Source: Salipiger pallidus
Lineage (GTDB): Bacteria; Pseudomonadota; Alphaproteobacteria; Rhodobacterales; Rhodobacteraceae
Direction of reading: 5' to 3'
Length of the DNA: 64,000 nucleotides
Assembly (NCBI RefSeq): GCF_014643635.1
Contig: NZ_BMJV01000001.1
Span: 372,001 to 436,000, forward strand
Both the position numbers and the translations under genes were made by a program. Below, one piece after another: positions 3,157 to 53,707 of this stretch (position 1 is the first letter of the stretch; the number at the start of each line of letters is the position of its first letter). The notes below the pieces were generated by a model, which was given only the letters and a program-made list of their open reading frames with translations, was not told where the DNA came from and searched no databases.

Positions 3157-5175
3157 TTGGACATCAAAGCCCTGCGCGAAGCCCATCCCGAGCACTGGAT
3201 GCGCTCCACCGCCATCCGTGCCCTTACCCTTGACGCGGTCGCAGCCGCCAATTCCGGCCACTCCGGCATGCCCATCGGCATGGCCGACGTGGCAACGGTG
3301 CTGTGGTCGAAGCACATGAAGTTCGACGCCAAGAACCCCACCTGGCCCGACCGCGACCGGTTCATCCTGTCCGCCGGCCATGGCTCGATGCTGATCTACT
3401 CGCTGCTCTACCTTGCCGGCGATCCGCAGATCACCCTCGACGAGGTGAAGAACTTCCGCCAGTGGGGCGCCCGCACCGCCGGCCACCCCGAGAACTTCCA
3501 TGCCGATGCCATCGAGATGACCACTGGTCCGCTCGGCCAGGGCATCTCGTCCTCGGTCGGCTTCGCCATTGCCGAAGAGAACCTGCGCGCCCGTCACGGC
3601 AAGCAGGTCGTGGATCACTACACCTATGTCATCGCCGGTGACGGCTGCCTCATGGAAGGCGTCAGCCAGGAAGCCATCGGCATCGCCGGCCGCTACGGCC
3701 TTGGCCGCCTCGTGGTGTTCTGGGACAACAACGACATCACCATCGACGGCAAGGTGTCCCTGTCGGATCGCACCGACCAGGTGGCGCGCTTCAAGGCGTC
3801 CGGCTGGCACGTGCAGGAAATCGACGGCCACGACCCCGAGGCCATCGACGCCGCCATCTCCGCCGCCAAGAAAGTCACCGACCAGCCGTCGATGATCGCT
3901 TGCAAGACCCACATCGCCCTCGGCCACGCCGCCCAGGACACGTCCAAAGGTCACGGCGCGCTCACCAACGCTGACCAGAACACCGAAGCCAAGGCTGGCT
4001 GGGGCTGGACCGCTGGCGAATTCGACATTCCCGCCGACGTCAAGTCGTGGTGGGAAGAGGCCGGTTCGCGCGGTGCCTCCGAGCGTGAAGCATGGGAAGC
4101 CCGCCTTGCAGGTCTGTCGGACCGCAAGCAGCAGGAATTCGCCCGCGTCATGGCCGGCGATGCTCCCAAGAAGCTGTCGTCCGTCATTCGCGCGTTCAAG
4201 AAGCAGAACGCCGACTCCCAGCCCAAGGTCGCGACCCGCAAGGCATCGGAAATGGTGCTCGAGGTGGTGAACCCGGTGATGACCGAGACCATCGGCGGCT
4301 CTGCCGACCTGACCGGCTCGAACAACACCAAGACCGGTGACATGGGCATCTTCGACACCGAGGACCGCAAGGGCCGTTACGTCTACTGGGGCATCCGTGA
4401 ACACGGCATGGCCGCCGCGATGAACGGCATCTCGCTGCACGGCGGCCTGCGCGCCTACGGCGGCACCTTCATGGCGTTCACCGACTACGCGCGTCCCGCG
4501 ATGCGTCTGGCGGCCCTGCAGAAGACCCCCACGGTCTTCGTCATGACCCATGACAGCATCGGCCTTGGCGAAGACGGCCCAACCCACCAGCCGATCGAGC
4601 ATCTTGCCATCAGCCGCGCGACCCCGAACATGTTCGTGTTCCGTCCCGCGGACGTGGTGGAAACCGCCGAAGCATGGGAAATCGCGCTGACGCAGAAAGA
4701 GACGCCGTCGGTGCTGTCGCTGACCCGTCAGGGCCTGCCGACGCTGCGCAAAGAGCACAAGAACAACAACCTTGTCGAAAAGGGCGCCTATATCCTTGCT
4801 GACGCGGAAGGCAAGCGTCAGGCGATCCTGCTGGCCACCGGTTCGGAAGTCGAGATTGCCATGAAGGCGCGCGACATCCTGCAGGCCGAGGGCATCGGCA
4901 CCCGCGTGGTCTCCATGCCCTGCTGGGAGCTGTTCGAAGCGCAGGAGGAATCCTACCGCAAGCGCGTTCTGCCAGCCGGCCCCGTGCGCGTGGGCGTCGA
5001 GGCAGCGGCCCGCTTCGGCTGGGACCGCTGGCTGCTGGGCGAGCGTGGCCGCGAGGCCAAGGCGGCCTTCGTGGGCATGGAAAGCTTCGGTGCCTCCGCT
5101 CCGGCAGAGGTGCTGTACGAGAAGTTCGGCATCACGGCCGAGAACGTGGCCCAGAAGGTCCGCGACATGCTCTGA
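3157..5175 (+). CDS. tkt: Transketolase
   Basis: Transketolase moves two-carbon ketol units between sugar phosphates in the pentose phosphate pathway, using thiamine diphosphate and Mg. I chose the TTG at 3157 because it follows AGAGGA at a seven-base spacing and gives the usual N terminus ([14 protein letters not shown]) and 672 residues; E. coli TktA has 663. An in-frame ATG at 3061 would add 32 unconserved residues. Visible motifs are [19 protein letters not shown], the ThDP-binding [13 protein letters not shown]...[10 protein letters not shown], the catalytic glutamate in [13 protein letters not shown] and the [14 protein letters not shown] signature. In many Rhodobacteraceae gap is the next gene; here several genes intervene. 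Confidence 0.96.
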
Positions 5176-49792: not shown

Positions 49793-50325
49793 TTGGAGCC
49801 TTGGAGCCTTGGAGCCTTGGAGCCTTGGAGCCTTGGAGCCTTGGAGCCTTGGAGCCTTGGAGCCTTGGAGCCTTGGAGCCTTGGAGCCTTGGAGCCTTGG
49901 AGCCTTGGAGCCTTGGAGCCTTGGAGCCTTGGAGCCTTGGAGCCTTGGAGCCTTGGAGCCTTGGAGCCTTGGAGCCTTGGAGCCTTGGAGCCTTGGAGCC
50001 TTGGAGCCTTGGAGCCTTGGAGCCTTGGAGCCTTGGAGCCTTGGAGCCTTGGAGCCTTGGAGCCTTGGAGCCTTGGAGCCTTGGAGCCTTGGAGCCTTGG
50101 AGCCTTGGAGCCTTGGAGCCTTGGAGCCTTGGAGCCTTGGAGCCTTGGAGCCTTGGAGCCTTGGAGCCTTGGAGCCTTGGAGCCTTGGAGCCTTGGAGCC
50201 TTGGAGCCTTGGAGCCTTGGAGCCTTGGAGCCTTGGAGCCTTGGAGCCTTGGAGCCTTGGAGCCTTGGAGCCTTGGAGCCTTGGAGCCTTGGAGCCTTGG
50301 AGCCTTGGAGCCTTGGAGCCTTGGA
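49793..50325. repeat. Octanucleotide tandem array, about 66 copies of GGAGCCTT
   Basis: The eight-base unit TTGGAGCC (equivalent to GGAGCCTT) is repeated without any change I can see for about 533 bp. Because eight is not a multiple of three and the unit has no stop in any reading, all six frames are open. That creates long false frames (EPWSLGAL repeats rightward, KAPRLQGS repeats leftward). It starts 16 bases after the dehydrogenase stop and ends 230 bases before a small membrane-protein gene. Perfect homogeneity suggests recent slippage growth. Confidence 0.97.
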
Positions 50326-50800: not shown

Positions 50801-50954
50801 GCCGACGGCTCGGATGTAAGGGGGCATGTCTTGCCCCTTCTTACGCAATGCCGGCTGTTCGCATCACCACAGGCAGTTTTGCCGGGCAGTCCCCTGACTG
50901 TCCTTGCGCACCCCCTCTTGCGCAACTGGGCGCGTAGCACTAAACGCCCCCGCA

Positions 50955-50989
50955 ACCGGTCGCAGCCTACCCGGTCAACAAAACAAGGG
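50955..50989 (+). promoter_or_regulatory. PreQ1-I riboswitch controlling queC
   Basis: Stem P1 is ACCGG (50955-50959) with CCGGT (50971-50975). The loop begins TCGCAG and contains CC. The tail is TCAACAAAACAAGGG. In order and spacing this matches the compact class I preQ1 riboswitch: an A-rich tail that docks into P1 and an AAGG end that pairs with the loop. It closely resembles the known Thermoanaerobacter tengcongensis example from memory. The AAGGG is also the ribosome binding site of queC (start at 50996), so bound preQ1 should block translation of the operon that makes it. Confidence 0.88.
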
Positions 50990-50995
50990 TCAAAA

Positions 50996-51697
50996 ATGAA
51001 AACTCTCGTCATCTGCTCGGGCGGACTCGATTCCGTGTCGCTCGCCCACATCACCGCTGCCGAGCATCAGCTCACGCGGCTGGTCTCCTTCGATTACGGC
51101 CAGCGCCATCGCAAGGAGCTCGACTTCGCCGAGGCCGCTGCAACGCGCCTTGGCGTTCCCTTTCACCTCATCGACATGCGCACCATTGGGGCCGCGCTGA
51201 CCGGATCGGCGCTGACCGACGACATAGACGTGCCCGACGGCCATTACGCCGAAGAGACCATGCGCATCACCGTGGTCCCCAACCGCAATGCCGTCATGCT
51301 GGCCATCGGCTTCGGCGTTGCCGCCGCCAACGGCGACGAGGCGGTTGCAACGGCGGTCCATGGCGGCGATCACTTCATCTACCCCGACTGCCGCCCCGCC
51401 TTCACCCAGGCCTTCGGGGCGATGCAGCGCATGGCGCTTGACGGATATGCGGACGTGGCGCTCCATACCCCCTTCGTCACCCGCACCAAAGCCGACATCG
51501 TCGTCGAGGGCGCCAGGCATGCGACCCCCTTTGCCGAAACGTGGTCCTGCTACAAGGGTGGTGATCTGCATTGCGGGCGCTGCGGCACCTGCGTGGAGCG
51601 GCGCGAGGCGTTCCACCTCGCAGGCGTGGCCGATCCAACGGCCTACGCGGACCCCGACTACTGGCGGCAGGCCATCGCAGGACGGGAGGTGCAGTGA
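50996..51697 (+). CDS. queC: 7-cyano-7-deazaguanine synthase
   Basis: QueC converts 7-carboxy-7-deazaguanine to preQ0 with ATP and ammonia. The 233-residue product has the PP-loop SGGLDSVSLA, DYGQRHRKEL, VPNRNAVMLAIGFGVA and the zinc-binding Cys185, Cys193, Cys196 and Cys199 (CYKGGDLHCGRCGTC). Its ATG is seven bases after AAGGG, within the preQ1 riboswitch expression platform. Its stop overlaps the queD start by one base (TGATG). It is the first gene of queC-queD-queE-queF. Confidence 0.98.
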   Translation: MKTLVICSGGLDSVSLAHITAAEHQLTRLVSFDYGQRHRKELDFAEAAATRLGVPFHLIDMRTIGAALTGSALTDDIDVPDGHYAEETMRITVVPNRNAVMLAIGFGVAAANGDEAVATAVHGGDHFIYPDCRPAFTQAFGAMQRMALDGYADVALHTPFVTRTKADIVVEGARHATPFAETWSCYKGGDLHCGRCGTCVERREAFHLAGVADPTAYADPDYWRQAIAGREVQ

Positions 51698-52050
51698 TGT
51701 TCCGCATCCGCAAGGAATTCCACTTCTCCGCCTCGCACCAGTTGACCCACCTGCCGGACGATCACCAGTGCGCTCGGCTGCATGGGCACAACTATATCGT
51801 TGTGGTCGAGCTGGCCTCGGGCACCCTGAACGCAGATGGCTTTGTACGCGATTACCATGATCTCAAGCCGCTCAAGAGCTATATCGACGGCGCGTTCGAC
51901 CACCGGCACCTGAACGATGTGCTCGACATGCCCTCGACCGCCGAGAACATGGCGAAGCATTTCTTCGACTGGTGCAAGGCCCGCTGGCCGGAAACCAGCG
52001 CCGTTCTGGTCAGCGAGACGCCCAAGACATGGGCGGAGTACCGGCCATGA
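51697..52050 (+). CDS. queD: 6-carboxytetrahydropterin synthase QueD
   Basis: QueD makes 6-carboxy-5,6,7,8-tetrahydropterin from dihydroneopterin triphosphate. The 117-residue product has the zinc ligands His14, His29 and His31 and the catalytic Cys25 ([24 protein letters not shown]). FDHRHLND and [14 protein letters not shown] are also typical. It is coupled to queC (TGATG) and to queE (ATGA). Confidence 0.97.
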
Positions 52051-52757
52051 CCAGCCTGCGCATCGCCGAGATCTTTGGCCCCACCATCCAGGGCGAAGGT
52101 GCTCTCATCGGAGAGCCGACTGTGTTCGTGCGCGCGGGTGGCTGCGATTACCGCTGCTCGTGGTGCGACAGCCTGCACGCGGTGGACAGCGCCTATCGCC
52201 ACCAATGGGCCCCCATGGCACCCGAGGCGATCTGGACCGAGCTGCAGCAGCTGTCGGGCGGCCAGCCTCTTACCGTGTCGATAAGCGGTGGCAACCCGGC
52301 CATTCAGGACTTCGGCCCGCTCATCTCGCTGGGCCGGGCCGAGGGGTACCGCTTTGCCTGCGAAACCCAAGGGTCGGTGGCCCGGCCCTGGTTTGCAGAT
52401 CTCGACACGCTTGTGCTGTCGCCCAAGCCCCCCTCGAGCGGCGAGACCGTGGATTGGGACGCCTTTGCACACTGTGTCGAGGCAGGGCGCGGCGCGCGCA
52501 GCACGGTCATGAAAATCGTCATCTTCGACCGCACCGATTACGACTGGGCCAAGCACGCTCACGCCCGGTTCCCGGATCTGCCGCTGTATCTGCAGCCCGG
52601 CAATCCCGAGGTGGACCCGGAAGAGCCCGTGGACCTTGGCGCGCTGTCGGACCGGCTGGGCTGGCTGACCGACACCGCCATGGCCGACCGCTGGTTCGCC
52701 CCCCGTATCCTCCCGCAGCTGCATGTGCTCATCTGGGGCAACAAGCGCGGCGTCTGA
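52047..52757 (+). CDS. queE: 7-carboxy-7-deazaguanine synthase (radical SAM)
   Basis: QueE is a radical SAM enzyme that contracts the ring of carboxytetrahydropterin to 7-carboxy-7-deazaguanine. The 236-residue product opens with [22 protein letters not shown] and has the iron-sulfur CX3CX2C motif at Cys33, Cys37 and Cys40 ([11 protein letters not shown]), followed by SISGGNPA. It begins four bases inside the queD stop (ATGA). queF follows after 18 bases. Confidence 0.97.
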
Positions 52758-52775: not shown

Positions 52776-53240
52776 ATGACCGACAGCATCTACAGCAACC
52801 TGACCCAACTTGGCGGCGACACCCGCATCCCCGAAAGCCCCGAGGCGGCTGAGCTCGAGCGGGTGCAGAACCCGCAGGCCGACGTGCAGTACAACGTGCG
52901 TTTCACCGCGCCCGAGTTCACCTCGCTATGCCCGATGACCGGCCAGCCAGATTTCGCACACATGGTCATCGACTACGTGCCCGGGCAGTGGCTGGTGGAA
53001 AGCAAGTCTCTGAAGCTTTATCTGACATCCTTCCGCAATCACGGGGCCTTCCACGAAGATTGCACCGTTTCCATCGCCCGCCGGCTCGTCGAGTTCCTCG
53101 ATCCGCAATGGCTGCGCATCGGCGGCTACTGGTACCCGCGCGGCGGCATCCCCATCGATGTGTTCTGGCAAACCGGCCCCATGCCCGAAGGCGTCTGGAT
53201 CCCCGATCAGGGCGTCCCCCCCTACCGCGGACGAGGCTGA
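52776..53240 (+). CDS. queF: preQ0 reductase (NADPH-dependent)
   Basis: QueF reduces the nitrile of preQ0 to preQ1, the riboswitch ligand. The 154-residue type I enzyme has the nucleophile Cys52 and Asp59 in [14 protein letters not shown], the QueF NADPH motif with Glu75 ([10 protein letters not shown]), and [10 protein letters not shown]. The start has CGGAGA upstream. It completes the path from GTP to preQ1 except for folE. Later steps, tgt and queA, are not in the window. Confidence 0.97.
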
Positions 53241-53430
53241 GCGGCCCGGCATTCCATGATTGGTGGTCAGTGAACGGCATTGATGGCCGAGCGTGTCCTG
53301 TGCTGGACATGCCTCAAAGCACGAGGCCTGCTGGCTCGGCTACAGGCCGGGGCATACCTTCTGATCCAGTGTCTGCGATGAGGGGGGTCGCCTGAACACG
53401 TTCAGGCTCTCCCAAGAAACTGGTCATAAT

Positions 53431-53626
53431 GGCCAGCTAGATTGCGAGTCATCCGAACACGGTCGGGCTCTCCTGCCACGCAGAGCGACATGATTAGGTG
53501 GGCGCCAGGCCCACGGGCAGGCGGACTTGGCCAGCTAGATTGCGAGGCATCCGAACACGGTCGGGCTTTCCTGCCACGCAGAGCGACATGATGCGGCGGG
53601 CGCCCGGCCCACGGGCAGGCGGACCC
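53431..53626. repeat. 98-bp tandem duplication downstream of queF
   Basis: Copies 53431-53528 and 53529-53626 each begin GGCCAGCTAGATTGCGAG and end near GGGCAGGCGGAC, with about eight differences. A shorter, more diverged relative (GAACACGTTCAGGCTCTCC) precedes them at about 53395-53413. The first copy has a GTGGGC-GCCAG-GCCCAC hairpin. I see no coding function. The stretch 53241-53646 otherwise has no gene. Confidence 0.85.
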
Positions 53627-53646: not shown

Positions 53647-53707
53647 CCGAGCTGCCGAGCTGCCGAGCTGCCGAGCTGCCGAGCTGCCGAGCTGCCGAGC
53701 TGCCGAG
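53647..53707. repeat. Second octamer array, 7.6 copies of CCGAGCTG
   Basis: The unit GAGCTGCC repeats perfectly over 61 bp, just after the 98-bp duplication. As with the larger array, the eight-base period keeps frames open (ELPSCRAA rightward, GSSAARQL leftward), producing false peptide extensions. Confidence 0.95.

Follow-up and report, generated by a model that had tools for sequence, protein, structure and literature searches.

The queCDEF locus and its leader

The window analysed here, a stretch of 64,000 nucleotides from Salipiger pallidus, carries four neighbouring queuosine genes on its forward (+) strand, the strand on which the promoter and the RNA element in front of them are located as well. 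By means of NCBIfam equivalog cut-offs, these were assigned as queC, encoding 7-cyano-7-deazaguanine synthase (50996-51697; TIGR00364, 169.3 bits against a cut-off of 150.3), queD (51697-52050; TIGR03367, 94.6 bits, cut-off 89.25), queE (52047-52757; TIGR03365, 359.9 bits, cut-off 206.1) and queF, encoding preQ1 synthase, the maker of the presumed ligand (52776-53240; TIGR03139, 152.6 bits, cut-off 86.9). All four pass, confirming the complete queCDEF set that an earlier note on this DNA had proposed. The start of queD overlaps the stop codon of queC (TGATG), and the start of queE that of queD (ATGA). Elsewhere, the S. pallidus genome carries tgt, queA and a Vut_1 transporter, so that preQ1 can be both made and used.

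Directly in front of queC, positions 50955-50989 read ACCGG-UCGCAGCCUAC-CCGGU-CAACAAAACAAGGG, followed by six bases and the ATG at 50996. The span of 50955-50996 given previously is thus correct, with 50996 being the A of the queC start codon. The two strands of stem P1 are ACCGG (50955-50959), assigned from the sequence, the alignment to Rfam model RF00522 and covariation of the outer pair, and CCGGU (50971-50975), assigned from sequence and covariation. They enclose the loop UCGCAGCCUAC (50960-50970). The tail CAACAAAACAAGGG (50976-50989) lies 3' of P1 and consists of an A-rich L3, CAACAAAA (50976-50983), and the motif CAAGGG (50984-50989), in which C50984 and G50987 are predicted to form P2 with G50965 and C50963, respectively. 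The Shine-Dalgarno sequence of queC, AAGGG, is itself part of this tail motif, and the distance from AAGG to the start codon amounts to 7-9 bases in 78 of 81 sequences. In a minimum-energy fold of 61 bases of the window calculated without pseudoknot, P1 is absent.

Upstream of the element, a sigma-70-like promoter is predicted by motif at 50918-50945, comprising TTGCGC (50918-50923), a spacer of 16 bases and CTAAAC (50940-50945). The pattern TTG-N17..21-TA occurs upstream of the element in 67 of 80 related loci, compared to a mean of 6.4 and a maximum of 14 in mononucleotide shuffles, the motif having been picked after inspection and the loci being related. Transcription would accordingly start at about 50952, giving a predicted leader of about 43 bases that is nearly all aptamer. 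A perfect 8-bp tandem repeat, TTGGAGCC, occupies 49793-50325 between two ORFs upstream of queC (66.6 copies, 533 bp, 100% match), and downstream of queF a 98-bp duplication (53430-53624) and a second perfect 8-bp array, CCGAGCTG (53647-53707, 7.6 copies), are found.

Assignment to the preQ1-I family

The element is very probably a class I preQ1 aptamer of type II, with the Shine-Dalgarno sequence built in, and resembles the aptamer of Thermoanaerobacter tengcongensis (Tte). With the Tte structure (PDB 6VUI) it presumably shares the 5-bp P1, the UCGCAG start of the loop and an A plus the specificity C before the 3' strand of P1. The A-rich L3, the CAAGG tail and the predicted location of the Shine-Dalgarno sequence in P2 are common to both. 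By count, L2 of the window element exceeds that of Tte by one base (CCUA instead of UAA), and L3 has one base less. Further differences to Tte are the occurrence in Alphaproteobacteria and a P1 nearly fixed as CCGG/CCGG.

In the Tte aptamer, U6, C15 and A29 contact the ligand, A14 acts as gatekeeper, G5-C16 forms the floor of the pocket, and P2 consists of C9-G33 and G11-C30 (PMC10622847, PMC8222354). Mapping the window element onto these roles gives U50960 for U6, C50963 for C9, G50965 for G11, A50969 for A14, C50970 for C15 and A50983 for A29, with G50959-C50971 as the floor and C50963-G50987 plus G50965-C50984 as the counterpart of P2. Hence, all nucleotides of Tte reported to contact preQ1 or to build its pocket have counterparts in the window.

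The marks of type II, UCGCAG...AC and CAAGGG, are present when compared to the published type descriptions (PMC8752633, PMC10622847). Type I aptamers (Can, Hin, Ngo) have the class I fold in common with the window element and are distinguished by a U in front of the specificity C, by a tail with CUA and by two bound preQ1 molecules (PMC8752633); the first two marks are missing here, the window element having A50969 instead of U and a CAAGGG tail instead of CUA. In type III, the loop is tight, rich in pyrimidines and lacks the G and A found in GCAG (PMC10622847); such a loop is likewise missing here, as that of the window element contains GCAG. The E. coli yhhQ riboswitch, being proteobacterial and translational, is alike in these two respects, yet belongs to type III and differs in exactly this loop. 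The B. subtilis queC riboswitch (type II) shares class, ligand pocket and the target operon queCDEF, whereas transcription is controlled there via a terminator (PMC10907184) and the ribosome-binding site lies within the aptamer here. It should be noted that the numbering of types differs in PMC8222354, where type 1 denotes Tte and type 2 denotes B. subtilis.

Covariance model searches

An Infernal search with the Rfam PreQ1 model had been proposed as a check. Using cmscan on 501 bases at a relaxed threshold, RF00522 matches 50950-50992 with 31.4 bits (E 1.5e-4), and across the 4.44-Mb genome the same match ranks first with an E-value of 3.1e-4, the runner-up having E 6.3. The match is therefore significant, though below the RF00522 gathering score of 39, and for this reason a default Rfam scan of the window does not report the element and returns three tRNAs only. 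Near-identical elements of relatives score 24.8-28.7 bits with RF00522 or do not even reach E 1, and out of 20 loci not one reaches the Rfam cut-off, which hence appears to leave out the whole alphaproteobacterial group. With R1, a covariance model built from alphaproteobacterial elements, the window element scores 62.1 bits, being itself among the model sequences.

Conservation and covariation

For an assessment of conservation, 80 queC loci were gathered from public genomes by protein similarity, independently of the element. The element, with its P1 stem and A-rich tail, is located directly 5' of queC in 79 of them, the exception being locus L100, and due to this constant position it is more than a chance resemblance. 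Its 19-base core displays 99.4% pairwise identity, compared to 31% for the 39 bases upstream of the element and 50% for third positions within queC codons 1-40. Listing the loci without any pattern, the ligand-contacting bases and the floor pair are retained in 79 of 80, and AAAAC is kept in all elements. A later parse of the elements itself demands U, AC and AAAAC.

When 52 distinct elements are compared, six standard pair types are seen at the outer position of P1 (AU 27, CG 10, UA 10, GU 2, GC 1, UG 1), 51 elements being paired there and one unpaired. Double changes at this pair number 22, compared to a shuffle mean of 7.1, and none of 500 shuffles reaches this value in a control that ignores relatedness. 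Additionally, the second P1 pair carries a compensatory swap from C-G to G-C in one element (L150). The other P1 pairs as well as both P2 pairs are invariant or nearly so; C50963-G50987 and G50965-C50984 are possible in 52 of 52 elements and never vary. Variation is so slight in four of the five P1 pairs and in P2 that the covariation comes from one P1 pair plus one swap. L2 varies in length, with loop insertions occurring only between pocket bases. The third base of L2 and the base following AAGG seem to be linked (C with G in 8 of 9), which was put down to common descent.

Within P1, the inner CCGG/CCGG is almost fixed (51 of 52 elements), although pairing is all that the stem requires. One could imagine that the alphaproteobacterial copies represent a distinct subtype rather than ordinary type II, the almost fixed P1 and the CCY loop having an additional function, for instance a different balance between the ligands preQ0 and preQ1 or a second binding partner. 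We assign a low probability to this idea.

Distribution in Alphaproteobacteria

Earlier surveys described preQ1-I riboswitches mostly in Firmicutes and sporadically in Proteobacteria (PMC2258182, PMC3766115), and the earlier note regarded a copy in a Rhodobacteraceae-like genome as unusual. This turned out to be wrong. Besides the 79 of 80 related loci, the element was found by model match in 24 of the 29 genomes with QueC among 296 genomes of the same family, and it also occurs in Rhizobiaceae and other alphaproteobacterial families. In total, R1 matches are present in 26 of the 296 genomes, two of them without an adjacent queC and one of these weak (L152). Across the class, 8 of 385 genomes contain matches, and in one further family the loop variants UCGCGGACCUAC and UCGCAGAAUUCCUAC occur before queC. 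In a sample of 398 genomes from the phylum, strong matches are confined to the window's class or family and stand before queuosine genes, with the restriction that R1 is alphaproteobacterial by construction and would miss distant types. Weak matches without queuosine genes (L128, L152, L205-L209, L211, L212) were taken as chance. In Rhodobacterales and Rhizobiales, queC genes of this lineage are thus as a rule preceded by the element.

Of the remaining five family genomes with QueC, one (G670, locus L179) retains the 3' half only and four have no clear element. At L179, an apparent IS3-type transposase end abuts this 3' half and the 5' half is gone; the resulting queC with Shine-Dalgarno sequence and no aptamer would either be a switch knocked out in nature or stem from a join made in assembly. 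Among the queC relatives, the element is absent from L100/L163, L173, L177 and L180. Upstream of queC at L186 (G408), no model match is obtained, yet a similar-looking tail, GATAAACAAGGG, is present, perhaps belonging to a copy that has diverged or decayed.

The element also accompanies other queuosine genes. In genome G992, a second copy with the tail AAAACAGGAG stands directly before an unlinked queF (L210). In genome G450 (L148), it lies about 70 bases before queF, near position 1500 of the reverse strand, so that its Shine-Dalgarno part is not adjacent to the queF start; this queF is followed by a protein matching a queuosine-precursor transporter model (Vut-type) below the cut-off, and no queC of this lineage was found in G450 by the QueC search. 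Judged by position, the element would therefore control queCDEF, queF (L210) and queF plus transporter (L148).

Probable mechanism of control and alternative explanations

Taken together, the element is very probably a class I (type II) preQ1 riboswitch switching off queC translation. The earlier proposal of a translational preQ1-I riboswitch on the queC ribosome-binding site is thereby upheld by the model match and by the conserved P1 and A-rich tail. At low levels of preQ1, CAAGGG in the tail would be free and ribosomes could load. Upon binding, preQ1 is expected to pair with C50970 and to touch U50960 and A50983, whereby an H-type pseudoknot consisting of P1, C50963-G50987 and G50965-C50984 would close and mask the beginning of the Shine-Dalgarno sequence, leaving queC untranslated. 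Production of a tRNA-modification precursor would most likely be shut off in this way once its supply is sufficient. Direct occlusion of the ribosome-binding site has been described for Tte (PMC10907184), and the short predicted leader with no room for a terminator makes it likely here, too. As their starts lie within the stop codons of the preceding genes, queD and queE probably fall together with queC, and queF, located 18 bases further, may follow. Speaking against this reading are the RF00522 score below the gathering threshold, the limitation of covariation to one pair plus one swap, the missing P1 in the pseudoknot-free fold and those queC relatives that lack the element.

That the same fold recognizes a ligand related to preQ1, such as preQ0, is improbable. 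In its favour, Tte, with nearly the same pocket, binds preQ0 just 17-fold more weakly than preQ1 (PMC10622847), and in G450 a queuosine-precursor transporter is encoded downstream of the element; against this, every pocket base equals that of preQ1 aptamers, and queF, which makes preQ1, is under the element in several genomes. Even less probable is a preQ1-I aptamer acting mainly by transcription attenuation in the manner of B. subtilis and not at the ribosome-binding site. The B. subtilis queC leader does so with the same aptamer class (PMC10907184), but in the window the tail is the Shine-Dalgarno sequence, the six bases left before the ATG give a terminator no space, and the AAGG-to-start spacing is retained as described above. 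Least probable of all is a protein-binding or DNA-level operator, or a conserved promoter or ribosome-binding region that is aptamer-like by descent or chance, for which the near-invariance of inner P1 beyond what pairing demands might speak, but against which count two-sided changes in the outer and one inner P1 pair, loop bases matching the preQ1 pocket one by one with insertions only between them, and the element before unlinked queF.

Origin and transfer

Transfer of the operon or an under-reported lineage had been offered as explanations for a copy in this family. The latter fits best, as the Rfam cut-off misses these copies. Import from Firmicutes was rejected as unsupported, with strong matches in the sample of 398 genomes occurring only in the window's class or family under the alphaproteobacterial model R1, which would overlook distant types. 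Some transfer within Alphaproteobacteria is plausible because the operon is patchy, plasmid copies exist and the tree is of mixed order: this QueC lineage is present in about one tenth of the sampled family genomes and about half of the sampled genus, its plasmid copies are common, and in the QueC tree Rhizobiales (Hyphomicrobiales) stand among Rhodobacterales at three places. These data fit loss together with some transfer of operon and switch as a unit within the class, the tree alone being no proof.

Spread by phages was considered as well and rejected. Roseophages with queC genes exist (PMC11806900), and the exact core was found in just two IMG/VR contigs, phage QueC proteins all being less than 60% identical. 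One of these contigs (L119) carries queCDE beside genes reading as ribonucleotide reductase, and the other (L120) displays an apparent prophage edge beside a tRNA adjoining queC.

Plasmid copies and relevance for model symbionts

Element matches were obtained in 145 plasmid records, and the checked ones, among them Sinorhizobium meliloti pSymB and plasmids of S. fredii, Paracoccus denitrificans and P. seriniphilus, carry the element directly before queC. In S. meliloti 1021 (pSymB 1161668-1169697, L220), the element is located at about 4001-4030 of this region (pSymB position 1165700, minus strand), directly before queCDE. These genes are known as exsBCD, and symbiosis with Medicago suffers when queC, queF or tgt is mutated (PMC3568095). 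Since the pSymB operon carries the element and these mutants are symbiotically impaired, a defined switch becomes testable in a model symbiont.

A riboswitch is not mentioned in the main text of the S. meliloti queuosine paper (PMC3568095), and no report of preQ1-I in Rhodobacterales or Sinorhizobium was found in the literature searched, which excluded the main taxonomic survey (McCown 2014). An annotation gap is closed, the Rfam cut-off excluding what is apparently the standard queuosine control in many Rhodobacterales, Sinorhizobium and Rhizobium. At the same time, a clean and short leader for probable direct occlusion is at hand together with natural variants, namely loop insertions, the P1 swap, the copy truncated beside a transposase gene and the queF copy. 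On plasmid pD4M1F of Paroceanicella profunda, the queCDE region occurs twice (L216, L221); the second queC is apparently frameshifted, and the riboswitch is identical at both copies.
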